Assembly: GCA_026120035.1 (NCBI GenBank)
Contig: JALRME010000048.1
Location: 1-64,000, forward strand
Origin: Coleophoma eucalyptorum
Taxonomy: Eukaryota > Ascomycota > Leotiomycetes > Helotiales > Dermateaceae
Direction: 5' to 3'
DNA: 64,000 bases
The notes below the pieces were generated by a model. That model did not search any database and was not told where the DNA came from. It saw nothing but the letters and a program-made list of their open reading frames with translations. Below, in pieces: positions 4,335 through 52,963 of this stretch (its first letter is position 1; each line of letters opens with the position of its first letter). Position numbers and translations under genes: made by a program.

Positions 4335-5060
4335 CTACAATAGACCCCGACTTGCGACACCAGGGTTCTTGATATTGTATATATCCTTTCGCAGGGTCTG
4401 GGAGAGCGCGGCAAGGGAATGGGAGAACATATGGTAGTGAATAAGCCCAGGGCCATCAGGAAATATTTCGGCGGATGCGTTGGTGGTGAGATAGTCTTTG
4501 GCTGACTGATGAATGATGTAGACATTATTATCTCGGACTGTAAGGAACGAGCCACATAGGTTGATAATTCTTTCCTGGTCTATATCAGAGATATTATTGT
4601 TGAGGCCAACTAGAGTTCGGAGTTCAAGCAAATGGAGCGGACAATATGCCAAGGTAGCTGTCGAAAGTACAAGGCGGCAGAAATCAGAATCCTGCCGCCT
4701 CAGCTGACGAGTGTGCAACATCATTCGGTTATAAAGTGGAGTTAGCTCCTTTGGCACCTCTTCAAGGATATCCAAGATGCTATATTTCTGCGCTTGCTGA
4801 AGCTCCATAAAGACTAGAGAAACCCAGAGGAAGTTCCGTCGGCTTTGTGACGCATTATATTCCGAACTTTATCTCGTATCGCTTGATCATGCTTTATTGA
4901 TGCAAGCTGATTGACCTTAATGTCAATATAAAAACCAATGGCGTGAGACACAAGACCTGCGTTCACCTCCAGACTTAGTCTCACATCAGCATCATGCTGT
5001 GCCAATCGAGTCTCTATATCATGTTTATTTCGACTGGTTACAATCCATTTTACTAAGAAT
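4335..5060 (-). pseudogene. Fragment of a fungal NACHT NLR protein, frameshifted
   Basis: Read on the minus strand, this encodes the end of a NACHT domain (VKWIVTSRNKHDIETRL) and then the winged-helix region typical of fungal STAND proteins (LAYCPLHLLELRTLVGL, INLCGSFLTVRDNNVYIIHQ, SAKDYL). The two halves are in different frames. Around 4835 one base is missing within the codons for the Gly-Thr-Phe-Leu-Trp stretch that normally joins them. Upstream of about 5060 the frame meets a stop, with no P-loop visible, and downstream it ends at 4335 with no repeat domain. It is therefore a broken piece of an incompatibility-type receptor gene. Two more NLR loci lie at 39-41 kb and 48-52 kb. Confidence 0.75.
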
Positions 5061-13378: not shown

Positions 13379-14196
13379 TCAGATGTGGTTATGAGAAGGT
13401 TTACTATTAACAGGCCCATGATTCGCTTCAACCCATGCTAGTATAGCCTCTGGGTCCTTACACTGGTGTGGAATTCCCCATCCGTCCACCTGAAACCTTG
13501 AGCCATCACTTTCTACTCGGGCCCATTCAATTGTGAGATCTCCAGCGCACAAAATGCTCTGCGAAAGAAAGTCAAAACAATGCTGGGTGTGGTATTCCTC
13601 GGGATGACTGTGACTTTCTTCTTGCTGAACAACATTTTCTTCGGTTTCGTTAAGAAAAGATTGATACTTCTGGCGGATCATATTCTGCCTATTAGCAAAG
13701 TACGGGGTTACTGAGACAAACCCATAGCTTACTAGACAGTGTAACTGGTGGAACATGGACACTGAAAAGCTGTCAACACCCGTGGAACTGGGAATACCTG
13801 GCTGTAGACCAAATCTCTCCGGGTCGGAAATATTGACGAAACCATTGCCGATCGGCGAAATGGTATTCCAAGCCTTATCTTTATGGTCCTCATTCTTCGT
13901 GAAGATTATTTTTTTCATAGGTACTGTTGCAAATGTCTTAGCGATGTTCCTCCAGTCAAAGTAGGCAAACTGTACTCACTTGTTGGTGCAAATTGTTTGG
14001 GTCTATTGTCAGTCCATTCTATTACCCTCGAATGCCTGGCATAAGTCAAGCCAAGCACCGAAAAACTAACGCCGAGGAGGAAGCCAGTAGCTAGGAGAAA
14101 TAGATATACAAAGTACTGTCGCCTCGTTGACAATACAGTACAGGTATCTTTATGTGTGGGTTTGTCACTATAAAGAGTCAACACTGTACTTTTCAT
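13379..14196 (-). CDS. UstYa-family (DUF3328) oxidase-like protein 1
   Basis: Two exons, 13980-14196 and 13379-13923 (56-nt intron), give about 253 residues. One N-terminal membrane anchor (YFVYLFLLATGFLLGVSFSV, about 29-50) is followed by a lumenal domain. Both HxxHC motifs that define the family are present: HQLHC at about 131-135 and HTQHC at about 184-188, the second followed by the typical FDFLSQSILC. In ustiloxin, phomopsin and cyclochlorotine biosynthesis, UstYa-type proteins oxidatively cyclise or otherwise modify peptide precursors. Neighbours matter here: a tiny secreted-peptide gene lies 1.4 kb upstream on the same strand, and a second UstYa gene beyond it. The start is the first ATG before the membrane anchor. 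Confidence 0.9.
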
Positions 14197-16757: not shown

Positions 16758-18041
16758 ATGAAATCAAAGATCATGTCTCTCTTGCCAGACTGGAAGCACA
16801 GAAAGTCATGGACGCCTCTTTCAACTGCCCAAGATGATGAGTCGGACACTGAAAAGAAGCTCCTTGATGATTCTGGTATTGAGTCTTCCAGTCGGTCTAC
16901 ATCCGAAGACGGGGAGATGAGATGGCCGCCAAAGCGAAACTCATTTAGGAGTCACAGAAATTCACTGATTCTCTTGGTTGCCAATATACTACTCCTCGGT
17001 GCTTCTTTATTTATCAACAGTGGCCTTCTATGGGATGAGAATTATTGTATAAGAAAAACATCGTACTACTGTACCATTTCCCACAGTCCTCTCAGGTACA
17101 TGTAAACTAATTTTGAAAGCCCCTCTCATCGAAGCAATGCCAATTCCGTTGAAAGACACGACATTCAACGGCACAGTATGGCCAACCAGTGTCATGGGCT
17201 GGACACGGCTAGAGAAAGGTAATCCCATTGCGGAAGAACTTTGGGAATCGTTCGAAAATATCACTGTCTTTCCTATCACCCGTAAGGACGTCTTGAAACT
17301 TGGAAAGGATCCAGAGCTTGTAGCTAAGTTTGAGGATGACTTTTGGGGCATGGGTGATGATGCTTACATTGCAACCACCGATGCAACGCACAAAATGCAC
17401 TGTCTTAACGAACTCCGGAAGACAGCATTTATTACCTACGGTGATGAAACTCCAAGAGTGCACCCACAGCATAGCCAACTTTGGTGGCTACATCAACGAC
17501 ACTGTCTGGATATGATTGCACAGGTAAAGATAGACATCACTCTCCCACTACACAGCAAAATAGTCCTAATCGCCTAGTAGGATGTACTGTGTCATGCTGA
17601 TGCTGAAGTTTTTACGTTCAACTGGATGGATACACAAAGAAAACCATTTCCCGACTTTAGCATTAACAGGAAGTGTCGGAATATTCACGATGTGTTTACT
17701 TATAGAGAGAAGCATGGCGTAGATATGGACAAGTATCTACAAATGAAGAAGCCAAAAAATGCTCACCAAGTTCCTAATGAGCCAGGTTATTACGCGATGG
17801 TATGTTACTCATTTTCTTTGTTAGGTGGGGGCTGGGAGGAACTTAAGCAAGCACTCATACCAACCTTTCAAATCTCCTAACTATTATATAGTTTGGCTTT
17901 GAGGACAGCGACTTGTTCCCGAATGGCGTGGGTTACACCACTCCATTACCAGACCTGAGGGAGTGGTATGGGAATGTCTCCATCAACGCCAACAGAAAGC
18001 CGGACCCAACAACAACCCATGACCACGCTGATCAAAAGTGA
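16758..18041 (+). CDS. UstYa-family (DUF3328) oxidase-like protein 2
   Basis: Four exons (16758-17070, 17120-17523, 17581-17799, 17892-18041) join in frame to about 361 residues, with introns of 49, 57 and 92 nt. After an acidic, Ser-rich cytosolic tail there is one membrane segment (SLILLVANILLLGASLFI, about 72-89). The lumenal domain has the family's entry block KTSYYSPL..., FNGTVWP, and both HxxHC motifs: HKMHC at about 195-199 and HQRHC at about 229-233, followed by LDMIAQDVLCHAD. It is longer than UstYa-like gene 1 because of an N-terminal extension and a C-terminal tail (REWYGNVS...). It is divergent from the small peptide gene, so the three genes form a unit. Likely role: lumenal oxidation or cyclisation of a peptide; substrate unproven. 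Confidence 0.88.
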
Positions 18042-21900: not shown

Positions 21901-24111
21901 CTACCTCAGATTACTCCAAATATTAAGCCTACTCAACCATCCTGCACCCTCTGCCCTCTTTGCTTTAGCTGTGCAAGCCCCCGAATAACAGTTTCCCGCT
22001 CCACAAAAAGAGCTTGAGTTCCCACAATACCCATACTGAGAACAACAAACCCCAAACTGCGTTCCTGTGCACGTCTTATTACCTGCAAATAACGGCCCGC
22101 AAGTTCCATCTGTACTCAGGCCTCCCTTGTCTGGATCACACGCGCCACTGTAACAATTTCCAGCTCCACAGTAAGCCGTTGTATTGCCACAATACCCTGA
22201 TGTGCTGCAACAGTAGCCTGCGGCACAGTCGTAGTAATTGTGTGCTGGCCCGCAGGAGCCGTCTGGAGAGATGGCATTTTGACATGCCCCAGAGTAGCAG
22301 TTGTTGTGCCCACAGTAACTTGAATTGGAGCCACAGTGGCCGTTATTGCTGCAGCAGGTACCAAAATTGGAGCCGGTACAAGTCGCGAACTGAGAGTTGC
22401 CTGGTCCGCAGGTTCCATCTGTCGAGATTGGCACAGCTGTTACATTAGCTATGCAGTATGCATACCCAGTCCATAAGTTGGTGCAATTACTGTAGAGCTG
22501 GAAGGAAATTGTCAGATGAGCTAAGGCGGTATGAGAATTACAAAGAAATACCTGAGTGTTCAATGCTTTGAATTGTGCGAAAGAGATACCATTGTTCAAA
22601 CACACAACATTACAATTATCGCCTGCGGCGACATTGTAGTATTTTCCACAGGACTTTGTAGTCCCACTTGAAGTTGGTTGAGAAGCAGATGCTGTGGTAT
22701 AATATGCTGATGTGGCAGTAGGAGCAACTATTTTGCTAGTAGGTGGTGTGTAAGTTCCCCCCGGAGCACTTTTGCAGATATACTGATTCCCTGCCACGCG
22801 ATCACAAAACCCGATTATATTTGGGTTCCAACTCAAAAACATCGAATTCGTGATATTGATCCCAGATGCAGTGGAATACTGTGTACGAAGAGTGTCACAT
22901 GTCTGACCAAATGGAATATAATCCACAGAACAGTTAGATGGAACACAAATTGGCGCTGTAAACCCACAATCCCAGTCTCCTGTAGCAACATTCAAGTCAC
23001 CTGTTGTGATACCGTACTTCTTAGATAACTGATCACAAGAAAGTATGGGGTTCGCTGGTTGAATCACTTGACCTACGCATGTAGCTGTTGCCGTTGAGCT
23101 GGTGGTTGTAGTTGGAACCGTTGTAGCGTTTGCATATGTTGGTAAGGCACGTGTTGTAAGTGCCATACTCGTGGTGCAAAAACTCTGCATATCTGAAAAT
23201 TGGCCGACTAGGTAGTCGGAATGGTCTGAATCTGGCAAGTAAGGAGAAGACAGCCTCTGGTGCATCATGCGGACGAAACAGTCGCTGCATAGCTATTATA
23301 GTCTCAGTAAGAGATTAAGAGATTATATCTTTTAAGGAGTTATGATGCCTTACCATGCTCCGGTTATAAAGATTGGCTAAGCGTTCCTGGGCAGGAAGTA
23401 CTTCCATTAAACTGAAGTTCGCCTGAAAGCAAGCAGGATTGTCATACTTTGTGCTTCCGGTATTACATGAGTCTGGGTTCCACCGTATGACATCGGAACC
23501 TTGCCAATTCTGTGACTCGATCATACAGGATGAGCCAGTCCTGACAGAATAGCATTAGTAGCTATCCTTCGTCTTGAGGACCAAAGTATTGGATTTGAGA
23601 ACTTACGTGGATTTCAAGCACGCTACATTATAACTATCTTTGTAGATTCCCGCAATGTTATTGGCAGGTACAGACTTGCCAGTTTGTGGTAGGGTATCTT
23701 TACTACATGAGGTGCCTACTTTAGTAATCCAGGAGCTCAAAGAGTTGGAACAAGTCGTTGTACACAAGGCTGATATGTCTGAAGGTTGCCATTGATATGA
23801 GTCTACAGCTGCTAGCCACCCGAACTTAGTTGAATCACATGCTACGGTTGTGTTTCTGTAAATCAGGACGATGATCAGCATATATCCTTAGGCGTATGTA
23901 AGTATGAAGGTATAAATCTAGAGAAAACGGATTTCCGATGTAGTTTTGATGGAAGATTTAATGTGCCTCGGAAAACCCACAGTGCAGCCACACATCCCGT
24001 ACTTATACCTAGAAATTGAGAGAATAGTGTGGCATTACCCGGTGGAAGCAGGTTGAAGGCAGCGTTGGCAAGTGATGCAGAACAAACCAACTTTAGAATA
24101 AGAGGAACCAT
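21901..24111 (-). CDS. Secreted LysM and hevein-type chitin-binding protein
   Basis: Five exons (23981-24111, 23607-23855, 23354-23540, 22552-23292, 21901-22497) join in frame to about 634 residues. A signal peptide (MVPLILKLVCSASLANA) is followed by a Cys-rich region typical of fungal LysM proteins that accompany killer-toxin-like chitinases (CTTTCSNSLSSW, CLKSTTGSSCMIESQNW, CSDCFVRMMHQRLSSPYLPDSDHSDYL, each read separately). LysM-like modules follow (around GQVIQPANPILSCDQLSKKY, IPFGQTCDTLRTQY, YNVAAGDNCNVVCLNNG). Three ChtBD1/hevein domains then begin STDGTCGP, SPDGSCGP and STDGTCGP, each ending CYSGAC. It should bind chitin or its fragments outside the cell. It is divergent from the GH18 chitinase at 24843, the arrangement known for subgroup-C chitinases and LysM partners. 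The intron at 22498-22551 is in frame and could be retained. Confidence 0.88.
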
Positions 24112-24842: not shown

Positions 24843-27800
24843 ATGGAGGTTCATTTCTACCTCAGTCGAAGATTCACGTATTCTATTCTGTTGTTTTGCT
24901 TAGCAACAGCGAGCTTTGTTCGATGCCTATCTACGAATGACACAGGCCAGAATGGCTCCCAGAACTCATCCCGCAACATATCAATTTATAAACCTCTTTT
25001 CACAAAACATTCATACTTGACTCCAGTTTTCCTCGATATTGAGCAGTTAAATGTGAATTCTTCTCGGAATTCTAGCTCTAATCTGCTCAAACGAGCCTCG
25101 ACTGCTCTTCCTGTGGGCTCTTGTGCACCTGGAACACCATGCGTCAACGGTGCTTGTTGTGCTAAGGTATGAAATCTTTTCTTTTTGAATTCCAACCAAA
25201 TTTTCCTTTCTAGGTTACACTGGTTATCTCTCTGATCTTAGTTCAAGTTTAAGTTTTTGTATTGAATATCTGTCGCATTCAAAGACATTCGCACCATCTA
25301 ACATGCCCTAGACAGGATTCTGCGGTTTGTTCTACTGCATTATTTTGGAGTAGCCTTTATTGATGTCTCTTCTAGGTTATGGACCTAACTTTTGTAATAC
25401 AACGAACTGTATCTCAAACTGCAATGCTACTGCCGAATGTGGAAAATACGGTACCACCGGTAAACAGAACTGTCCATTGAATGTATGCTGTTCTCAGTAT
25501 GGTTTCTGTGGGACAACTACCGAATTTTGTGGTACGGGATGTCAGAGTGCCTTTGGAGGGTGCGGCTCTGCACCCGTACCTCCTGCATCTCATGGTGCAA
25601 GCACTTTGCAACGCACAATTGGCTATTACGAGTCGTGGTCTCTTACTCGACCGTGCGATGGGGTCTCTCCAGAAGCACTAGATGTTGCTGGATTCACTCA
25701 TTTGAATTTTGGTAATTTACCAGACCCAATACGTTAATTAACACCCAGTGATTGGCTAATATCACCTGTAATTCTAGCCTTTGCCTTTTTCCATCCTACC
25801 ACCTTCCAAGTCTCAGCAATGGATTCAAATGCACAATCCCTGTTAACACGATTCACAGACATTAAATATCGCGCCAATGGTCTACAGACTTGGATTTCTG
25901 TAGGTGGCTGGTCGTTCAACGATGCTGGCAATTCGCCAGATACGCGACAGGCTTTCAGCAAAATGGCTTCAACCTCAGCAAACCGGATGACGTTTATACA
26001 TTCACTAATTGCATTCATGACAACTTATGGATTTGATGGAGCAGATATTGACTGGGAATATCCCGGAGCAGATGACCGTGGCGGCATCCCAGCAGATACT
26101 GCTAATTTTGTCTCTCTTGTCAAGGATCTGAAAACTGCGTTTGGCACAAAATTTGGGCTGTCTGTGACTTTGCCAACATCTTTCTGGTACCTTCGTCATT
26201 TCGATGTCAAATCTATGCAAGCATCGGTGGACTGGTTCAACTTTATGACATATGATCTTCACGGCACTTGGGACTCCACGGATGTTTATACCGGACCCTA
26301 TATTCTACCACACACGAACCTGACAGAGATCGATCAAGGTATGTACATTTGCCAGCAAAGCTGGATACCAAATTAACTGAGATAGGTATGCAGCTACTGT
26401 GGAGGGCGGGGGTCTCACCCAGTAAAGTTGTGATGGGGATGGGTTGGTATGGTCGTTCATTTACATTATCAAATCCCAGTTGCAATAAACCTAATGGCAT
26501 CTGCCAGTTCTCTGCGGGAGCAAATGCAGGCAAGTGCTCTGGAACTTCTGGTATACTTATGAATATCGAGATTCAAGCCATCATCAAACAGTATAATCTG
26601 CAAGTTACAACGGACAAAGTTGCAGCAGTCAATTGGATCACCTGGAATTCCGATCAATGGGTTAGCTATGATAACAACGTTACGTACCAACTCAAACGAA
26701 ACTATGCAAATAAGCTCGGCTTGGGTGGCCTTATGGTCTGGGCTATTGACCAGCAATCGCAAGATGCAGCCGGTCTCACCAACTTTATGCCATATGGGAC
26801 GCCACTAACTGCAAATCAAACTTCAGCTGCGAATGGACTGACAACGAACGTTGACGGCCAAAGGAGTTGCTATGTTACTGATTGCAATAATAATTCACAG
26901 TGTTACCCAGGATATACAGCCATGACTCAGATGAATGGACAAATTGGGATTCTAGGCACTCAACCTCGTTGCGGCACTGGGTACGTTCGGACTATCTGCT
27001 GTGCTGAAGGCTCAGTATCTGGCAAATGCACATGGAGAGGATGGAGAGGGCAAGGGCTCAGTTGCGTTGGAGGCTGCAATACGGGCGAAACATCCGTTGC
27101 CCAAGGGACTAACTCCTACCAATACCTCCCCACCGAGAATCTACTCAAAGATTTGTCATGCAATGGTGGCATACAAAACTTTTGCTGTTCAGGTTATAAA
27201 CCACAAACGAATCAATTTTCTCAGAATGCTGCAGTAAAGGCTCCTGCTGTCGTCAAAAATAACAAGCCTGGTGTCTCTGGGGGAGGTATTGCCGCCGCGA
27301 CAGTCATCTGTACGGCCGCTGTAACAGCTTTTTTTGCACCTCTCATGGCAGCTGAATTATTGATTCCAATCATAGGGTGGATTGCAGATGGAATTGAAGC
27401 TGCACTGATTCCAGGAATCATCACAGCGTGTGCAATCGCCGTTGCCGCTGGCCTAATCGCTCAATTTGGGTGGAATGGACACACAACTACCCTTACTAAA
27501 ACTACGGGAGGCCCAACTAGCACATCAACAGGAAGTTCATCAATGATCGGCCCATACACATCTGCAGTGTACCCACCAGGGGCTAAGACCTGTCGAGTCA
27601 CATATACCTGCCTCTATGGTAAAAGTTTCGACCAAGTAAGTGACATTTGGACAGCTATGGATAATGTTGTTTTCTGACAGCGAATCAGGTCTGTGATAAC
27701 CAACGCTATGGTCTTGAACAACAATTGAATGGGGCAACAACTGTCTTCCACTATCCCGCTGCACCTCCTCGCACTGGGCGTATGAAGGCTCAATGGCCTG

Positions 27801-33138: not shown

Positions 33139-34779
33139 TCAAATAATTGGCTCCAGTGCTCCCCTTCCACTGATCTTAATGTCACTTATTTCTCTAACAA
33201 TGCTTTTTGCCCCTCCGTCCTGCATCGCCGCATCAACCCAATTTCCATGAATTTGTGCCTTGATATGGAATGGTAACTGTATAATAGCAATTGGCCTTTC
33301 AAACTGCTTTGTATCAATGACAACAAGATCACATCGACTGGCTGCCTTCCTTTCCACTAACGCAATAACCCACCCATCACCTTCTGGTGCGTGCTTATTT
33401 CGTGGGACAAAAGCTGGTTCCTGTACCAACGAGTCATCGCCAGCATAGAAATATCGTGTCTCTCCCGTCTTATTGCTATGCATAGCCAGCGCGTTTAACC
33501 CATGGAAGATATTCTTGCTGCCGTCTGACATCTGTGGCAAGAACACATCTAGGAAAATCCACTCGTACTTATGCGTCATAAAGCGTTCATCGATGCGCGG
33601 AAACTCGCATGGGATATCAAGGATCACTTGAGGATCCGGAATCGAGCTTCCGCTGGCTTTGATAAGATCAAATTCCCAGCGCACGAAATCGGCCTTTGCG
33701 TTAGGTTCCGGCATACGTCCGTCGGGGGGTGGGAAGAAAGGGAAGGCATTATCATGTACTCGCGATGACTCCATATACAAGTTCCCGTCCGCGCTTTCCC
33801 ATGCGCCGGCTGTGTGAATAGGCATGCAGTTCTTCCACTCATAGTGTCGGTATTCGCCTTCCTTCCACCCTGTTGGCAAGGGCGTTGTTTTACGCCTTGG
33901 CACTACGATGAATGTCGCTTTCAAATCGTAGTTCCATGCCCAATGTTGCTCCTTAGCCTTCAAGCGAGCCATGTCCGCTTCAAATGGCCAGAGCACCAAG
34001 ATTAACCAGTTTGGTGTAATGGCACAATCATGAATAAATGAACACCAGGGAGCTCTGACCCAAAGCTCGTCTAGCTTCTTCCCATCCTTGTCAAGTGTAT
34101 AAGTTGCGACATCTAGCGTGGCCAGGCCTTTAGCTTCGTACCCAAATACCACAAGTTCATCTGTATACGGGTCGACTTTCGGATGTGCCGTGAAGGTCTT
34201 GCTCTTGACCTGGGGACCAAATGGATCATACTCTAATGTCTCTAGTGTGTCTGCGTCAACGGCATAGGGAAGCGCAACTTCCTTTAATGCAAGCAGGCGA
34301 TTAGCCCACATGACGACATTTGTATTGGCGGTCGAATCCACAGCTGCCCTCACACATGGGTGGTGTGTAAATGGATTCCGGTATAATCCAAATAGAGCTT
34401 TGTTCGCTTTCCGCTCAAGCTTATATCGTTCCGTCTCAACATACCGCATTTTCATATCTACGCGGCCGTTGTGAAATCTGAAAGCAGAGATGTTTCCATC
34501 GCCGTCAATGGGGATATTATCTGGATGTGGTGGTATGAATGGATCACACATTACGCGGTAGAAAGTCCCATTGATCTCGTCAGGGATATAACCTAGTACC
34601 ACTAAGTCTCCGATCTCTCCTTCTAGCCGGCATGGCAGGCCTGAGCCAGCTAAGTCAAGAGCGACAGGCCATTTTGATATAAGGCCGTAGATACCATTGT
34701 CATATAGAGAGCTTTTCGAAGGTGGCAAATTATCTGAGGCGTGGGGAGCATCGCTTGTCTCGATTCTTGAATGTGTCAT
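33139..34779 (-). CDS. Carotenoid/stilbene-cleaving dioxygenase (RPE65-like, lignostilbene dioxygenase type)
   Basis: Intronless, 546 residues from the ATG at 34779. An in-frame upstream ATG-type extension to 34830 adds 17 hydrophobic residues and seems less likely. It is a seven-bladed propeller dioxygenase with four iron-binding histidines, all visible in context: FTAHPKVD, SFIHDCAIT, PIHTAGAW and AQIHGNWVD. Family-typical stretches include NGTFYRVMCDPFIPP, FRFHNGRVDM, GRMPEPNAKADFVRWEFDL and EPAFVPRNKHAPEGDGWV. Fungal members cleave stilbenes such as resveratrol, or carotenoids. The HAPEGDGW and YRVM features favour the lignostilbene type, but I cannot fix the substrate. The neighbouring FAD monooxygenase, SDR and hydrolase would suit stepwise breakdown of a phenolic. 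Confidence 0.9.
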   Translation of the reverse strand: MTHSRIETSDAPHASDNLPPSKSSLYDNGIYGLISKWPVALDLAGSGLPCRLEGEIGDLVVLGYIPDEINGTFYRVMCDPFIPPHPDNIPIDGDGNISAFRFHNGRVDMKMRYVETERYKLERKANKALFGLYRNPFTHHPCVRAAVDSTANTNVVMWANRLLALKEVALPYAVDADTLETLEYDPFGPQVKSKTFTAHPKVDPYTDELVVFGYEAKGLATLDVATYTLDKDGKKLDELWVRAPWCSFIHDCAITPNWLILVLWPFEADMARLKAKEQHWAWNYDLKATFIVVPRRKTTPLPTGWKEGEYRHYEWKNCMPIHTAGAWESADGNLYMESSRVHDNAFPFFPPPDGRMPEPNAKADFVRWEFDLIKASGSSIPDPQVILDIPCEFPRIDERFMTHKYEWIFLDVFLPQMSDGSKNIFHGLNALAMHSNKTGETRYFYAGDDSLVQEPAFVPRNKHAPEGDGWVIALVERKAASRCDLVVIDTKQFERPIAIIQLPFHIKAQIHGNWVDAAMQDGGAKSIVREISDIKISGRGALEPII

Positions 34780-35570
34780 GATGATTATAGCGGCAACTAA
34801 ATGATATTTGTGATGGCATAGGATTAACACAAGATAGCAGTCTCCTTTATAAATGTTATCGGTGATAGTTCATGCATTAACTGTAACTGCCGCTTTGCAA
34901 TGCCGCGCTCCTTCTGCTACGTCAGCGTCACTTGGAGCAAACAAACTTAATATCGATGGGACTGTGACTATAGATATTCAGTGTTTCTATATCTGTAGTC
35001 TTTTGTCAATTCTATAAATTAATACTAGATTTGTCCACTTAGTCGGATTCAACCCACATGTTACGAGTTAGAGTTCGGGGTGGGTAACTCCCACCAAATA
35101 GGATCATGCGGTAGGAATCGAGTTCCAAACACCCCGCAAATCGGTAATTGCAAAAAGACAGGACCGGACAAGACAAAGCCAGTTCAACCTGTGCCGGTCG
35201 GGAGATTGCCCACTTAGTCGGGTATGAATCAAAGCTCAATGTGGGCAATTCCCACCAAATAGGATACCAGTAGAACACGAGGAATGACTACCCCGCAATT
35301 AATCCATCAGCACTTCGGATAGTGAAGACAAAGTTGGTTCAATCTTACAAATGAACTCGTTTGAGAGCCAGTCGTCTTGATCTGGTGCAGTCTATATCTT
35401 ACAGATCATGAAGGCAGGAATTTGAAGTGGGAAACTTGCGACAAGTACAACATAAGCTAAGAATCACTCGTCGCAGCTAACTCAAGTGACAGGTTCTGAC
35501 TCAGCGTAAGTAAAAGCCAAGATTAGTATGACTAGTCTTTATTTATGTGTCTACTGCAATCACAGCACCA
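34780..35570. other. Intergenic with an imperfect tandem duplication
   Basis: No gene. Holds the promoter of the dioxygenase gene and the duplicated segment at 35035-35350. Confidence 0.5.
35035..35350. repeat. Imperfect tandem duplication with internal inverted repeat
   Basis: Two diverged copies share, in the same order, CCACTTAGTCGG (35035 and 35219), a GTGGG...CCCAC hairpin followed by CCACCAAATAGGAT (near 35090 and 35251), CCCCGCAA, and GACAAAG followed by a GTTCAA-like end (near 35172 and 35337). Spacing differs by some 20 bp through indels. It may derive from a mobile-element fragment. Confidence 0.6.
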
Positions 35571-38947: not shown

Positions 38948-41045
38948 TTACATATCTTCCTCAACCCCTTCAAAGTCCTTGATTTCACTAGATGTCTCCT
39001 TTTTACTAGACATACCACTTCGTAGTTTCTCCCAAACCTCTTCATGGCCTTCAAATTTCAATATAGCCCTATAACGAACAATATCTTCAAGTCTTGCGTC
39101 TTCAACAGGAACCAGTGCGCATTGGATGTATGCTCAAGTACTGGAGTAATATCCTCGCCATTTTTCAATTCTATATCTTTAGGTAAAGGGTATAACTTCG
39201 ATCTCAAGAAGTCGTAAGTAGTAGCGTGGATGAGGTTGACAGTTTGATTGTCTTTGGAAACCGACACAAGGCCAATGCAAACCGGGAGAATTGTCTTGAC
39301 GTCTTCGATATTTTCCGAGTCAAACTCTGTGGTTCCTTCTTCAACAGCGAGTGCATGTTGTAGCTCAGCAATCGTTAGTGGTCGTCGAGCGAATACCACC
39401 CAGCTAAGGATTTCTCTGGCTAAATCCCTTCTTTCCCCTTGAGACTGATCAAAAATTCGATCCAGAGTGCTTTGGTATGCCTGCGTGAGATCTGCCGGTA
39501 TCACTTTAAGGGCTTGTCACATTTTCTTTACGGTTGTAATGTTTTCCAAATGATCCATAACAAGTCTTGCAAGCAGGAAGCCATTAAAATCAGTGGACGA
39601 AAAAGGTATGGAACCATAGTGATTAGATATTCTTACATTCCATTTACATGTTGGAGCACCCGATTAACAACCACCTCACCAAGGCCACTATTTCTGAGAC
39701 TTTCATAGATAGAAAATTCTTTGATTCTGCTTAAGATGTACATAGAAAGATCGTTTTGTGTAGCTTTGATTTCAATGGATAAGTTCTCCTGTAGTGCATC
39801 TCTGATATCTGAGATGTCTCTGCTTGTAAGAAATAGCTTTATGTTTGGTTTAGATAGCTGTTGGAAAAGCTTCAGAACCTTTGATCTGTCGAGGAGTTCA
39901 TCCAATCCATCAATCACAATTGAGATTGATGGCAAGCGGTTAAAAATCAAAGTTGCACACTTGTACAACTCTGTCCACGTTGGGAAATGAGTCCCTTTAA
40001 CCCTGTTCTGAAGCTCTACTAATTCTGCCAGGGCAATCTTCAAAATCTTAGGTACTTTCACAAGCAAGTTCTGGAGGAGATCACGGGCCGAAGGCTTTTC
40101 TTTTGCTGAGCTTGTAAAGAAATGAGAAACAACGAGCTTGTGGTTAGACTCCAGAATTTTCAGGTCGTCGGCGACTAACGAGCTGCAAAAGGTTAGCAAT
40201 TATGAGAATAGAAGTCCTCATAATACTAACGCAAGAGTTGTTTTCCCTACCCCAGCTATCATTTGCACCCATTAGCTATTTTTAAACGCTCGGTTACTTG
40301 AATTCACTGACGGTCACCATAGGCCCAAAGCAAAGATTGATTGCCATGCTTCCACCTCCTATACTCTGAGCTATCAAGAAGCCCACCTCCGGTACCAGGG
40401 TATAGGTGCTCTAGGATATGAGAGAAGCTTGTAGGGGTTATTTCGGGAGATAACCAAGTGATGAGAGCTTGAGAAGCAGCATCTGAAAAAAGAGTCAGTT
40501 TGGAAAGACACTATGGTGCGACGAGTATCATCTTCCCTTGTTGTAATTCTTTGACGTTTCGATAGCTTTCAAGTGATATGGTGCTATGACAAGTTAGTGA
40601 TGTTTATGCCGCGGCGAACCAGCAAGCCGTACAAGGTATCCACAGCTAAGGTAGACATGAAGACATCGCGGTATCTATGCAGCGACTCAATTCTTTTACT
40701 CAAATGGCCAAGTGACGAGCTTTAACTTTGATACCAGTCTGTCATGAGCTGCATGTTTCTCCAGCCTTGCCTAAAGTTCCTTGAGTTGTTTCAAACAACC
40801 TTGAACCGCACTTGACGAGATGTTCCGAGGACGAGTAGTCAGCACGTCCCCGAAATGGACGATATCATTAGCTTGTGCAGTCGGAGCAGCACTGACATCA
40901 AAGCAGAAAGTTCTTGTAGGTACAACGAGAAACTTTGGTTCGCGTTCTTGATCGCAGCCGCATACTGAAAACTGACCTGGGTTACTTGTATCGCGAGGCT
41001 AGCTAGGCCTGCTACAGATGCTGCTCAACCAAGAGCTTCAGCCAT
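38948..41045 (-). pseudogene. NACHT NLR (STAND) pseudogene
   Basis: A complete but broken NLR gene on the minus strand. The N-terminus (MAEALG, then a stop, then AASVAGLASLAIQVTQV) matches the helical N-terminal domain of many fungal NLRs. Further on, KQLKEL-stop-ARLEKHAAHD shows another stop, and a frameshift precedes RIESLHRYRDVF. The NACHT core itself is still open: a 25-nt exon (40231-40255) carries most of the P-loop, GVGKTTL, between introns of 56 and 48 nt. ISIVIDGLDELLD is Walker B, and LFLTSRDISDIRD follows. The link to the winged-helix region has no valid acceptor. A TGA lies where MRQALKVIPADL is expected, and the tail (to 38948) is in yet another frame. No ankyrin or WD repeats follow. 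Confidence 0.8.
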
Positions 41046-43511: not shown

Positions 43512-45036
43512 ATGAAGAACTTTGGCTCTGTTCTAGCAGTAGCTATGCTCTCTGCTAGCGCTGCTTCAGGATTTGTCCTCCCTAGGAACTTCTTGACTAC
43601 CGCGCTCGAGGCTCGCTCGCCACTCCCAGGAAGTAAGTAATCCTTCTGTCATTAGATCACTATGTATCGAAGCTAAACGAATTCAATCAGATAAATTCAT
43701 CCCTGGTGTTACTGGTGTTACCACTCGTCAAAACACTGGCGCAACCGGCGACAACATTGACCAAACTGGGGACAACAAGAAGCGTCAAGCCAATGCAAGC
43801 GAGCCATGTGTTGGCACTGGAGCTGACCAGACTGGCGACTGCCAAAACAAACGATCAGTCGATCTCTCTGAACGTCAATCAACTGGTGATAACATTGACC
43901 AAACTGGCGAGAACAAGAAGCGTCAAACAAACGGAACCGACACTGGCGCAACTGGTGACAACGTTGACCAGACCGGAGACAACAAGAAGCGTCAAGCCAA
44001 TGCCACCGAGCCTTGTGTTGGCACTGGTGCTGATCAGACTGGCGACTGCCAAAACAAGCGATCAGTAGACCTCTCTGAGCGCCAATCTACTGGTGACAAC
44101 ATTGACCAGACTGGTGAGAACAAGAAGCGTCAATCTACTGGTGACAACATTGACCAAACTGGAGACAACAAGAAGCGTCAAGCTAATGCCACCGAGCCAT
44201 GTGTTGGCACTGGAGCTGACCAGACTGGTGACTGCCAAAACAAGCGATCAGTCGATCTCTCTGAACGTCAATCAACTGGTGATAACATTGACCAAACTGG
44301 CGAGAACAAGAAGCGTCAAACCAACGGAACTGACACTGGTGCAACCGGCGATAACGTTGACCAGACTGGAGAAAACAAGAAGCGTCAATCAACCGGTGAC
44401 AACATTGATCAAACTGGCGAGAACAAGAAGCGTCAATCAACCGGTGACAACATTGATCAAACTGGCGAGAACAAGAAGCGTCAGGCCAATGCCACCGAGC
44501 CATGTGTTGGCACTGGAGCTGACCAGACTGGCGACTGCCAAAACAAGCGATCAGTCGATCTCTCTGAGCGTCAATCAACTGGCGACAACATTGACCAAAC
44601 TGGAGACAACAAGAAGCGTCAAGCTAATGCCACTGAGCCATGTGTTGGCACTGGAGCTGACCAGACTGGTGACTGCCAAAACAAGCGATCAGTCGATCTT
44701 TCTGAGCGTCAAACCAACGGAACTGACACTGGTGCAACTGGCGATAACGTTGACCAGACTGGAGACAACAAGAAGCGTCAATCAACTGGTGACAACATTG
44801 ATCAAACTGGTGAGAACAAGAAGCGTCAATCAACCGGTGATAACATTGATCAAACTGGCGAGAACAAGAAGCGTCAGACCAACGGAACTGATACTGGCGC
44901 AACCGGCGACAACGTTGACCAGACTGGGGACAATAAGCGATCAGTCCATCTCTTTCAACGCCAAACTAACGCAACCGATACTGGAGCAGCGGAGCCCTGT
45001 GTTGGCACCGGAGCTGATCAGACTGGTGACTGTTAA
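43512..45036 (+). CDS. Secreted Kex2-processed repeat protein (KEP-type multi-peptide precursor)
   Basis: Two exons, 43512-43632 and 43691-45036 (58-nt intron, GTAAGT donor, GCTAAAC branch, TCAG acceptor), encode 488 residues with no internal stop. Exon 1 gives a signal peptide (MKNFGSVLAVAMLSASAASG) and a short pro-region. Exon 2 is built almost wholly of 13-23-residue units ending in Lys-Lys-Arg or Lys-Arg, 19 dibasic sites in all. Three peptide types alternate: QSTGDNIDQTGEN; QTNGTDTGATGDNVDQTGDN; and a two-Cys type containing PCVGTGADQTGDC. A SVDLSER spacer follows every Lys-Arg-terminated two-Cys unit. Nearly every predicted peptide starts with Gln after Arg. Exon 2 has no Met, Tyr or Trp. 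Golgi Kex2 cleavage should release about 20 peptides. Role unknown: signalling, surface-active or antimicrobial peptides are possible. The missing aromatics argue against UstYa-type cyclisation. Confidence 0.88.
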
Positions 45037-48105: not shown

Positions 48106-51100
48106 CTATTCAGACGCACCATGTTCAATAAGCAGCTTCACTAATTCTTGCTGTCCGCTTTCCCTTGCCGCCTCTAGAGCACTACCATATTTGCCAACTT
48201 GAAGCTGGGCATTTGCATCCGCACCCGACTGGATCAAAAGTTCCACTTTGTCCCTGTAGCCTCCAACCACAGCAGCTGCAAGTGCACTTCCGTAGTCACC
48301 AGTCTCGAGCTGGGCATTGACGTCCGCTCCCGATCTGATCAGAAGCTCCAATATATCTTTAGTGCCACCAAATGCAGCTGCAGCAAGAGCACTGCCGAAC
48401 CAACCGCCTGGTAATCGGGCATTTACTTCTGCCCCGGACTGAATCAGGTACTTTACCAGTTCTTCTTCGCCTCTATATGCCGCTCCTGCAAGTGCACTGC
48501 GGAAGTTTCCAATGTGAAGCGGAGCGTTTAGTTCTGCCCCCGATTTGAGCAGAAACTCTACTTGGTCTGAATTACCTCTAACTGCTGCTGCTAGAAGAGC
48601 ATTGCCGTATTCTCCGTTTTGAAGCCGGGCATTGACATCTGCACCTGACCTAATTAAAAGTTCTAGTACTTCGATATTTTCTCCCCCATATGCCGCTGCT
48701 GCTAGTGCGCTACCGAAGTTGCCGGTATGGAGCTGGGTATTGACATTTGCTCCAGATCGGATAAGAAGCTCTACTCCTTCGGTGTAGCCTGAATATGCTG
48801 CCGCCACAAGCGCATTACCAAATCGTCCAACTGTGAGTTGGGAATTCACATCTGCGTTCGACTTTATCAAAAGCTCCATGACGTCCTCGCCAATTCCTCC
48901 ATATGCCGCCGCTGCAAGCGCACTTCCGAATGATCCACCGTTGGGGGAGGCATTCACATTTGCCCCTGAAGCAATTAAGAGCTCTACCATTTCTTTGTCA
49001 CTGGCAGCCGCGGCTGCTATGAGTGTGTTGCCGTAATATCCAGCCTCGGGTTGTATTGTAACGTCGGCTCCTGACTTGAGCAGAAGCTTCACCATTTTCA
49101 AGTCACTCCCACTAATAGCCTGTATAAGTGCATTGGCACTGAAACCATCAAAATCGTCCAAGGGTTCGCCATTCACGTTTGCTCCCGACCTAAGAAGTAG
49201 CCCTACAACTTCACTGTCATGTGTAGATACAGCTGCTGCAAGGACATTGCTATAGTTTCCATCGTCGAATCTTTGGTCAACATCGGCACCCCACTCAATA
49301 AGATGTGCGCAAAGAGGGACAGACATTCCTAATGCCGCAAGCTGCAGAAATGACCGGTCTGTGTCATAGTTAACTTTACCCTGTGATAGAGCTTTATGCC
49401 ACCATTGTGGTAATATCGGATAAAGGCCAAATGCACACATTGCGTAGATAGCTGTGGAAGCTAGCTCAAGATATTCGGAGCTGATTCTATACTTGTTCAC
49501 GCCCGAGGTCTCCGGGACGTTATATGGCTCATATGCGAGCAATCTTTGCCACATCCGGTATGAAATACTACTATCTCCGGGGTCTCCGATGAATCTTTCG
49601 AGAAGAACCGAATGTCGAGCCTGGTTGGCTTCGTGGTCACTTTCGCGGACATGGATCATCCAATGATGTAGGGCATAAATCTCGGTCTCGCTGAAGCCAC
49701 TTTTAAACGACTCAATCCGCTCATCATCTAACGGAGGGCTTCCTTCCATAAAATATTGCTTTAACTCAGCATTTAGCTCGTAATTGCTCCCAATATTGTT
49801 GAGTAGCAAGAGACAAACACTAGATACTAGGCAGTTGGCCTGTTGCTGAGTCCAGTGTTGATTCTCAAAATACTCTATAACCGAGAGATGAGAGGGAACC
49901 CACACATTCCGCTCGGAATCAATCACTAGGAGGTTCCGACAGTACTCAAGTAGAAGGTCCTCGTCGAGATCGTCAACCTCCCTGATCTCATCCTCATTTT
50001 CATCTTGGGAAACGGCCTGAAGAAGTTCATCCGTTGACAGAGGCTTGCAGGCACACATAACCCACTGAAAGGCACGATCCGCAATTTGTCGTTGAGTTTC
50101 ACTGATTCCATTGTATATCTCGTTATATGCGTCTTCAAGGTCCTTAGGAAGCTTTCCCAGGCGCCCTTCGATTTCCTTCCTTTGCTTCAAATCTAGTAGT
50201 TGTTTGATTTGGAGGAAAGCCCATTGAAACCTGTACTTGGTTAAATTAAACCGAATATAAATTATACACCAATCCAACTTACATTCCTTGGCTTTGGTCC
50301 TGCAATTCCTGGACAACTCGATTCTGGAGATTTGGGGGCATTTTGTTCCATCTTTCATGCTTTATAATCTCACTCTCGATATACCTAGAGATGTCATCAT
50401 TATTATCGGTGGCGTGGATTTGTATGTTCGTTTTGCTTCCGAATCTTTCTTTGATATCACTATCTGGCCGACTCGAAATGAAGATTTTTACTGGCTTTGT
50501 AGCATGGACTTGGAAATGATCGAATATTTCTATGAGCTCGCGGCGTTTGTGCCGCTCACACTCGTCCAACGCATCTAAGATGAAGGTTGTCTGAGGATAG
50601 AGGTTAATATATTCGAGAAGGAGTTCCTTGCAATCTGCGATGGTAAGTTCGGAACCGTCTTTCCGATGCTGCAAATATGATCGCTTGAGGGTCTTTTGTA
50701 TGGAGTTATCATTATTAGAAATGGTTGACAATTGACGAACGAAGCTGCGTAAGATATTTAAAGGTTCTCGACGGTCGACTTCGTTGCGATTGCAATAGAA
50801 AAATGCGAAGCCTTCATGATTCGTGTTGCATTCTAGAACATCTCGACGCTCATCAATGACTTTAGATGTTAAATAAGTCTTTCCTGTGCCGGCTGTAAAC
50901 CAGAATTAGCATGAATGATACGCGGTACTTTTGTGTCTAGTACGGACCTGTTCCGTGCAGCCATAAAATCATTGACGAGCTTGCATTTTCCCACTCTAGG
51001 TACCCAGGTTGCAGTAGAAGCCATTTGCACGTGTTTTGAGTTCGTGCTTCTTTAACTGTACTATGGTGTTTTCCATATAAAACTGGTGATGTCCAATCGA

Positions 51101-52167
51101 GGATAGTAAGCTGTTCTTCGCTCTGTACGGTCTCCAAAAGAGAAGAGACCCTTTCATCAATACGTGTGACAGGCGCCTGAAATGAATTGAGCAGTTTCTG
51201 AATCCTCTCATCCCTTTCTCGGTTGTCGACACGCTCACAATTTTGAGCTTCAATTTCTACCCGAGTTTCTAACGACGGAAATGCGGCAAGAAGATCAGTT
51301 ATCTCACCAGGATTTACGATAGCGTTTAGGGTCCGGAGGGCTGTGCTGGTAGCGAAGAGTCGATGGGCGAGAGCTGTCAATCGTAGTATTGTGGCGTAAA
51401 GCTCAATTAATGCCGAGTTTAGATTCTCCAAAGCCTGTCCCGAAACAGTTCCGGGCCCATACAGACTCTCATATACCCTACAGCGGCAAGTTAAGTAGGT
51501 AATTTTTTCGACACTCATGAGCAGAGCACCCATCTGTTCCTGTCCTACGACGGCTACCTTTACGAAAAGAATTCAGCAACTACTTCATGCAAGGGGGATT
51601 CGGTAATACCTGAAGGAAAAGCCTGATACAAGACCAAGGTAGACCGGCATGTACTGGCTCAAAGCTTGCTACTATATCGCCTAGGGATATAAACTTCTTC
51701 ATCCAGAACATTGCCTTCTCAGCAACATCCCGTAGAATTATCTCCTTCCCCTGCCAATGAAATTTAATAGCTTTTGTCTCACACTCATTTTGTTTTGTCT
51801 TGGTCAGGGTAATCAATTCGTCAATCTTTTCAGTTGTAGCCGGCTGAGTGACGCCTGTTCGCTGAACTGCCTGGATTGCCTGGATGGTTGCCCGATCTTC
51901 CTCTGAGAGCTTTTGTACTGCACCAAGCCAAAGATCTTGAACAGGAGGTATTTTGGGCGATGATAAAGACAAGGCTTCTTGCTCGGGTACTAGGATTGTT
52001 GGGCTTGTGTCTTTGGACGACGAAGGCAGAGTAACAGATGGTGTAGAGGCAGTGCCAATGCTTGGGATACTTGGGGCCGGTGACTTGGCAGGAGGTGTTG
52101 TGCGACCAAATTTGAATTTACTTATGAGTTTATCTCGCTTCCTAGAAGGAACTGGCGATTGCGACAT
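48106..52167 (-). CDS. NACHT-ankyrin NLR protein
   Basis: Four exons (51610-52167, 50948-51557, 50283-50892, 48106-50230; introns 52-55 nt) join in frame to about 1300 residues. A basic, Ser/Pro-rich start (MSQSPVPSRKRDKLISKFKFG) leads into the helical N-terminal domain of fungal NACHT proteins (DLWLGAVQKLSEEDR..., GLPWSCIRLFLQ, YESLYGPG). The NACHT ATPase follows, with P-loop GTAGTGKTYL and Walker B TTFILDALDEC, then FISSRPDSDI. After a winged-helix region come about twelve 33-36-residue ankyrin repeats, several nearly identical (FGSALAAAAYGG... ELLIRSGADVNAQL). All three splice junctions preserve conserved blocks, so the gene appears intact. NLRs of this type act in non-self recognition and regulated cell death; the N-terminal effector type is uncertain. 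An earlier in-frame start up to 52341 is possible but unlikely. Confidence 0.9.
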
Positions 52168-52963
52168 GTTTCCTATCTTCCTACTGGATTGGACCAAAGC
52201 CCAGTAAAGACAACAAGGTAGGGTTATTCCTCTGCCAGAGTTTGGAGCATCGTAATGTTGGCAGCTTTGGACAGCGAATGAGGCAGAGTAAGCGCTACAA
52301 TGTCTGGCCCCACTCGCAGTTATTTGAAGGATTTTCCGCAAGCTTTCTGACGGCGGGTGTTCTAGGAAATAAAGTAGGGACTTATGCTAGTACAATATAT
52401 TGAAAGAAAATAATATGGGCATGAAGTGCATTTATGAGCTGAAAAGCACTTGACCGAGCCAGGTTGTAAGAGTCCTCCCGCCTTAAGGACTTGACTGGTG
52501 CCCGGAGTGCAACAAAGGCGATCACATGACTGATACTTGTCACATGTCTATTTGACTTTCAACATGATTTTCAAGTCATGGAGTAAGGACTAAGCTTTCC
52601 CCCCAGACCTGAGGTTAAAAATGATAAAGCTTTGTGCTAGAAGTCTATGGCATGGCCTTGAAATTAACATCTTACTGCTAAACAGAATAGTAATAGAGGG
52701 CAGCGTGGTTCATATACCCGCCAAAACGATGTTCTGCGGGCCGATGCGCGCGACCTACCTAATATAGCACCGCAATTCCCGTAAGGGGCTTACTATGTAT
52801 TACAGTATTCTCTTATCACCATTGTCTTATCCTCTATCTTCCGAGCAATTTATACGACCGGTAAATAATCACGCGCTATTGCCCCATCATGCTCACCGCA
52901 TCTATAGCATCATTCTTCTGCTATTGACTCCTTTCAAGCATAGCCGGCTGATTTCATCACATA
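52168..52963. promoter_or_regulatory. Divergent intergenic region
   Basis: Spacer of 796 bp between the NLR gene (minus) and the secreted hypothetical (plus). No specific site recognised. Confidence 0.4.

Follow-up and report, generated by a model that had tools for sequence, protein, structure and literature searches.

In the genome of Coleophoma eucalyptorum, a run of short repeats ending in Lys-Arg follows a short exon with a hydrophobic start, which raises the question whether this locus is a gene at all and, if so, what kind of secreted product it would release. The locus lies in a window of 64 kb, the whole stretch of DNA that was analysed, which forms the first part of a 198,639-base contig (C44). 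Searches covered the whole genome, consisting of 45,259,943 bases in 101 contigs. A first-pass annotation, made from the letters only, had proposed an overlooked multi-peptide precursor. The analysis described here indicates that the locus very probably encodes an orphan Kex2-processed repeat protein (KEP), i.e. a secreted precursor that would be cut by Kex2 into acidic, signal- or effector-like peptides. It also adds a further class of candidate cleavage site ([LV]xxR), sequons at residue 3 of the predicted peptides, a paralogue, and a relative in Coleophoma crateriformis, none of which were part of the first-pass annotation.

KEPs are common, and their functions are reported to be largely unknown (PMC9769878). 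One survey counted 7878 KEPs in 1345 of 1461 strains (PMC7329392), and kep gene knockouts in Coprinopsis are reported to have no detectable phenotype (PMC9769878). Few precursors contain more than one peptide type: of 1193 KEPs in another survey, two types were recorded for 77 and three for 2 (PMC6339444). The precursor described here offers exact, testable peptide masses and can be compared with a relative and a paralogue. Three features could cause its products to be overlooked, namely the short exon 1, the lack of Met in exon 2, and the possible glycans.

Gene model and reading frame

The gene lies on the forward strand. Exon 1 (43512-43632, 121 nt) encodes a putative signal peptide and the start of a propeptide (FVLPR..LEAR..PG). 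A predicted intron of 58 nt (43633-43690, phase 1, GTAAGT...CAG) separates it from exon 2 (43691-45036, 1346 nt), which encodes the end of the propeptide, followed by 26 units with boundaries at KR or between R and Q, and closes with a TAA stop codon at 45034-45036. Joined in frame, the two exons translate into 488 aa with 19 KR and 0 RR sites, and exon 2 contains 0 Met codons. The first-pass annotation had described the same arrangement, and its signal-peptide exon, 58-nt intron, second exon, 19 Lys-Arg sites and absence of Met from exon 2 were all recovered. Hydrophobic windows cover residues 4-17, as judged by hydropathy only, and this start is conserved in the paralogue and in the C. crateriformis protein BP5796_13175. 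The signal peptide would comprise approximately residues 1-20, with the cleavage point being a guess.

A frame-blind self-alignment of exon 2 at a threshold of 75% placed 6992 of 6992 aligned positions at offsets divisible by three. The 1494 mismatches were distributed as 381/282/831 over codon positions 1/2/3; since the aligned pairs are not independent, no p-value is given. The gene had been described as hidden by longer frames, which holds for ORFs started by ATG, the longest in the region being 287 aa out of frame and 106 aa antisense. Counted from stop to stop, however, the KEP frame is the longest in the region, with 479 codons. At the level of sequence, the homologue, the paralogous prepro exon and the codon-phase self-alignment confirm that the predicted gene and its frame are real and not due to chance.

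Exon 2 produced a single sub-threshold Pfam match, to tRNA_SAD (16.4 bits, cut-off 24), which was rejected as a chance match below the cut-off. Pfam gave no match for BP5796_13175 or for the paralogue. Over the whole window, no Rfam family was found at gathering scores, and a tRNA search found none.

Repeat units

When the chain is split at KR and between R and Q, a propeptide ending in VTTR is followed by one first unit, five internal copies of type A and one terminal variant, nine copies of type B, four of type C, and six spacers, in total 26 units. The first unit, QNTGATGDNIDQTGDN-KKR, is encoded at 43729-43785. The first type A unit, QANA(S/T)EPCVGTGADQTGDCQN-KR, follows at 43786-43854 and displays a Cys pair and a sequon at residue 3; the terminal variant is found at 44962-45033. 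The first 7-residue spacer, SVDLSER, is situated between KR and Q at 43855-43875. This spacer sequence is present five times, and the remaining spacer, SVHLFQR, is found at 44941-44961. Type B units consist of 16 codons and read QSTGDNIDQTG(E/D)N-KKR, the first at 43876-43923. Type C units read QTNGTDTGATGDNVDQTG(D/E)N-K(K)R, the first at 43924-43992, and carry a sequon at residue 3. All of these features are on the forward strand.

The repeat region is dominated by T (13.8%), G (12.9%), D (12.9%), Q (10.6%) and N (10.1%), and a net charge of -3 to -4 is calculated for the predicted peptides of types A, B and C. It contains neither Tyr nor Trp, its only Phe is in a spacer, and the 488-aa protein as a whole lacks Trp. 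Lys is restricted to KR or KKR, except at residues 2 and 42, and the C-terminus has no hydrophobic anchor. An AlphaFold model of exon 2, built on a two-sequence alignment with BP5796_13175, is structureless (mean pLDDT 36.3). The lack of a predicted fold fits a protease-accessible precursor, while an alignment of so few sequences could leave other proteins without a predicted fold as well.

Predicted cleavage sites

In the wide sense, all 28 Arg of the predicted secreted chain (after residue 20) are placed for Kex2, 19 of them in KR and nine in [LV]xxR. The P4 residue is L or V at all nine non-KR Arg and is I, L or V at none of the 19 KR sites, with a background of 8.5% for I/L/V after residue 20. 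The distinct [LV]xxR sites are VLPR, LEAR, VTTR, LSER and LFQR; since five of the nine are LSER copies, the nine sites are not independent. The extended Kex2 motif, as reported, has Leu or another aliphatic residue at P4, and Lys at P2 is best replaced by Arg, Thr, Pro, Glu or Ile (PMC8528282). Three of the five distinct sites fit this motif, with Pro, Thr or Glu at P2, and LEAR (Ala) and LFQR (Gln) do not. Cutting at [LV]xxR is thus uncertain, both because of the LSER copies and because the P2 residues of LEAR and LFQR are unlisted. The same pattern is found in BP5796_13175, where P4 is I, L or V at 9 of 10 non-KR Arg and at 0 of 14 KR sites, and the one non-KR Arg outside the pattern opens an RR pair. 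In the paralogue, the corresponding numbers are 4 of 6 and 1 of 2.

Coprinopsis KEPs expressed in Pichia gave products apparently cleaved after single Arg, according to mass spectrometry, and Coprinopsis KEP peptides with pyro-Glu have also been detected by this method (PMC9769878). A profile search of the present genome identified a Kex2-type protease gene on contig C23, with Peptidase_S8 and P_proprotein frames. Among glutaminyl cyclases, the search covered the family PF05096, as distinct from the M28-type cyclases, and gave 0 matches in the genome. A signature of STE13 trimming was rejected; type A begins with QA-NA in the present protein and with QE or QD in C. crateriformis, and is thus not conserved at this point.

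A relative in C. crateriformis and a paralogue

A protein database search with 7994 scored candidates returned a sole match at E<=10, the hypothetical protein BP5796_13175 of C. crateriformis (Helotiales, 414 aa), with 60% identity over 72% of the query (E 3.1e-127). The description of the locus as overlooked is therefore only partly apt, since this relative was already present in databases as a hypothetical protein. The two proteins share EPCVGTG..QTGDCQNKR, spacers of the form S(V/I)xxxxR, QSTGDNIDQQGENKKR, a Cys-pair peptide, the peptide QSTGDNIDQxGENKKR, and a C-terminus ending in Cys, and 20 of 40 residues are identical in the prepro segment. BP5796_13175, known here as protein only, differs in the longer head of its type A (QENATDTGAAEPC), in having 14 KR sites and no fused type C, and in the number and order of its units. 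Phe in its repeat region is confined to spacers. Type C of the present protein looks like the head of the long C. crateriformis type A fused to a type B tail. Judged by these comparisons, the KEP design is already known, and this relative is the only match found for the peptides.

Further searches gave no additional relatives. A 141-aa query for shorter relatives returned none at E<=10 among 775 candidates, in a search with no positive control, BP5796_13175 being outside its length limits. BP5796_13175 had no match at E<=1 among PDB sequences. Four 7-letter peptide strings were absent from the PMC papers searched, and a literature search for KEPs or repeat peptides of Helotiales found none.

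Genome searches identified at least one further gene with this prepro, at C57:521699. Its prepro is identical to that of the present gene at 22 of 40 residues, with a score of 110 compared to a maximum of 29 in 2000 shuffles. Exon 1 is again 121 nt long, and a predicted intron of 50 nt interrupts the gene at the same point (the codon after Pro-Gly) and in the same phase, which backs the splice prediction made above. The payload differs from that of the present gene. Joined to an unrelated payload, the common prepro exon would be a direct case for how peptide families renew themselves. Four candidates were scored in a search for relatives of the paralogue prepro, none at E<=10; this was a weak search, in which the true relative BP5796_13175, although of a length that the search admitted, was missed too.

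The paralogue (C57:521699-522754) encodes 240 aa in 7 predicted exons, and its exons and introns are co-duplicated as a 109-nt tandem repeat. Its units are NAT-bearing and Ala/Thr-rich, and are placed between KK sites; the segments after them are not repeated and contain Trp and Phe. Within about 4 kb of the paralogue there are two further genes, one for ETF-QO and one with a GDS1 domain. The prepro of the C. crateriformis protein is nearer to that of the paralogue (26 of 40 residues) than to that of the present gene (20 of 40), though its repeats match the latter. This mismatch would reflect either an exon swap or a faster change of exon 1 in the present gene.

Comparison with KEPs and rival explanations

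Besides an ER signal peptide, published surveys define KEPs by at least three tandem repeats of at least 8 aa between KR, KK, RK or RR, none exceeding 100 aa, or alternatively by at least four KR/RR fragments of which at least three are alike, with repeats covering at least 15% of the protein (PMC7329392, PMC6339444). By our own count, the present protein has 20 KR fragments after residue 20, with lengths from 16 to 52, and all 20 contain the motif DQTG. Without the first, the fragments with DQTG add up to 85% of the protein, as a summed span and not by the formula of the surveys (smallest motif times copies). With these repeats, a protease gene of the Kex2 type in the same genome and a homologue, the secreted precursor proposed in the first-pass annotation remains the best reading. 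A signal-like start, many KR-divided repeats and a repeat-filled protein are shared with the KEPs of Le Marquer 2019 and Umemura 2020; several peptide types, the second site class [LV]xxR and sequons at a fixed position set the present protein apart from usual KEPs. The three peptide types (A, B and C) and the spacer were distinguished by eye, and the FIMO grouping used in the survey might merge B and C.

The absence of a gene, with a minisatellite carrying an accidentally open frame or translated in another frame, was considered. The second forward frame of exon 2 is interrupted by one stop only, and one antisense frame is nearly as synonymous as the KEP frame (638 vs 712 of the 1494 changes). 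The three antisense frames contain 8 to 26 stops, however, and the third-position excess, the offsets divisible by three, a database homologue in the same frame, and a paralogue sharing the prepro exon and intron point make this explanation highly improbable. A structural or adhesive secreted glycoprotein of cell wall or mucilage, left whole or partly cut and with KR incidental to its repeats, would agree with the low-complexity, T/G/D/Q/N-rich composition, the sequons and the homogeneous repeats. We nevertheless regard it as unlikely, given that 28 of 28 Arg fall into two strict cut-site classes, that Lys is almost confined to these sites, that an anchor is missing from the C-terminus, and that the site pattern is kept in BP5796_13175.

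The first-pass annotation had also likened the locus to ustiloxin, repellent and alpha-pheromone precursors. The likeness is borne out for the architecture, but not for aromatic cores, a nearby UstYa gene, hydrophobic repeats or Trp. Dikaritin cores carry an aromatic residue for cyclisation, though not as a strict rule. A precursor of this ustiloxin type, i.e. a RiPP with cores oxidatively cyclised by UstYa (DUF3328) proteins, would share the putative signal peptide, the secreted repeats and the KR sites; two UstYa genes are present in the window (13.4-13.9 kb and 17.05-17.7 kb), a UstYa match is this near for no more than about 3% of the genome (a post hoc figure), and one KR-bounded stretch of the paralogue contains Trp and Phe. 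The closest UstYa gene is nevertheless about 26 kb and, by our own count, about 11 frames away, compared with an average of 3.09 genes reported for the 22% of KEP genes accompanied by DUF3328 genes (PMC7329392). Moreover, neither Tyr nor Trp is available in the repeat region, and Phe is confined to spacers here as well as in BP5796_13175, which makes this alternative very unlikely. The nearness of UstYa genes is mildly unusual and, because aromatic core residues are lacking, is not read as a cluster. The ascomycete alpha-pheromone motif is W-C-x-x-x-G-Q-x-C, and in the absence of Trp no such peptide is present among the units. The locus is thus extremely unlikely to be the sexual alpha-pheromone precursor of this species, which would contain one peptide type and not several, despite the same architecture and the two conserved Cys reported for Leotiomycete alpha-pheromones (PMC6339444). 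A strict pattern for the true pheromone gene had 0 matches in the genome; a loose pattern had 5, compared to 3 for a reversed control, of which two read without a stop and neither of these within a listed frame of >=60 aa. As the true gene was not located, this rejection draws on the sequence of the units.

Ustilago maydis Rep1 has Kex2-cut repeats in common with the present protein (PMC8528282). The peptides predicted here are hydrophilic and acidic, in contrast to the water-repelling, amyloid-like peptides of Rep1, and with its T/G/D/Q/N-rich acidic repeats the protein is not recognisable as a hydrophobic repellent of this type.

Sequons and proposed processing

Each of the 10 N-glycosylation sequons is found at residue 3 of a predicted peptide starting with Q. 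N3 and T/S5 are constant, while variation is seen at residue 2 (A, T, E, D) and residue 4 (A, G). Of the 10 sequons in BP5796_13175, 8 occupy residue 3 of a Q-headed unit, one occupies the third residue of a spacer, and one is found at residue 19 in the last unit. The repeat region of the present protein has no more sequons than expected from its composition (10 vs a shuffle mean of 8.12, with 28% of shuffles reaching this number). There is an excess in BP5796_13175 (number reached in 0.5% of shuffles) and in the paralogue (0.2%), in counts of a kind that repeats inflate. Since the number of sequons in the present gene is not above composition, the case for glycosylation builds on position and on the relatives, and we regard N-glycosylation at residue 3 as a lead and not a result. 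A literature search on Kex2-released fungal glycopeptides from repeat precursors found nothing. The variable modifications listed in a passage on KEP peptidomics do not include glycosylation (PMC9769878), and glycosylated KEP peptides could for this reason escape such peptidomics.

Taken as an orphan KEP, the protein suggests the following route. The signal peptide would direct the unstructured precursor into the secretory pathway. There, N-glycans may be attached to Asn 3 of the longer peptides, and a small loop could form in each type A peptide through its Cys pair. Kex2 would cleave the chain in the Golgi, after KR and, helped by the aliphatic P4, after [LV]xxR. A Kex1-type carboxypeptidase would then remove the leftover Lys and Arg, and Gln residues freed at the N-termini would turn into pyro-Glu. 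Processing would yield many copies of a 13-mer (B), a 20-mer (C), a 21-mer (A) and a hexapeptide spacer, all of them acidic, which may act outside the cell as signal or effector-like peptides. With pyro-Glu, the calculated monoisotopic masses are 1360.538 (E form) and 1346.522 (D form) for type B, 2059.785 for type A (NAT form, one disulfide) and 1962.767 for type C. A broader idea, which we consider possible but rather doubtful, is a small, fast-changing gene family that keeps one prepro exon, swaps payload exons, and releases ribosomal N-glycopeptides with a glycan at residue 3, a pyro-Glu cap and, in some cases, a disulfide loop; the two site classes, KR and [LV]xxR, would then set the order of peptide release.

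Neighbourhood of the gene

The flanks of the gene, roughly 3 kb on each side, contain no ATG frame longer than 83 aa, a search that could overlook genes built of short exons. The reverse strand carries, at 39058-40199, 48106-52386 and 4335-4868, NLR-like frames with NACHT/NPHP3_N, winged-helix (GPIID_WHD) and ankyrin domains, which are spread over several frames, through either introns or breaks. The two UstYa (PF11807) genes, at 13379-13975 (-) and 17053-17715 (+), have an OYE-type oxidoreductase (10.1-11.2 kb) and a luciferase-like monooxygenase (19.2-20.5 kb) nearby, and this group is possibly a separate biosynthetic cluster. A tandem-repeat scan found no array between 9.9 and 37.1 kb, and thus no repeat-type precursor beside the UstYa genes. 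A chitin-binding protein (21901-23292, -) and a GH18 chitinase (25738-27677, +) are encoded on opposite strands, in what looks like a chitinase/chitin-binding gene pair. A long frame at 33139-34869 (-) matches an RPE65-type carotenoid/stilbene oxygenase over nearly the whole profile.
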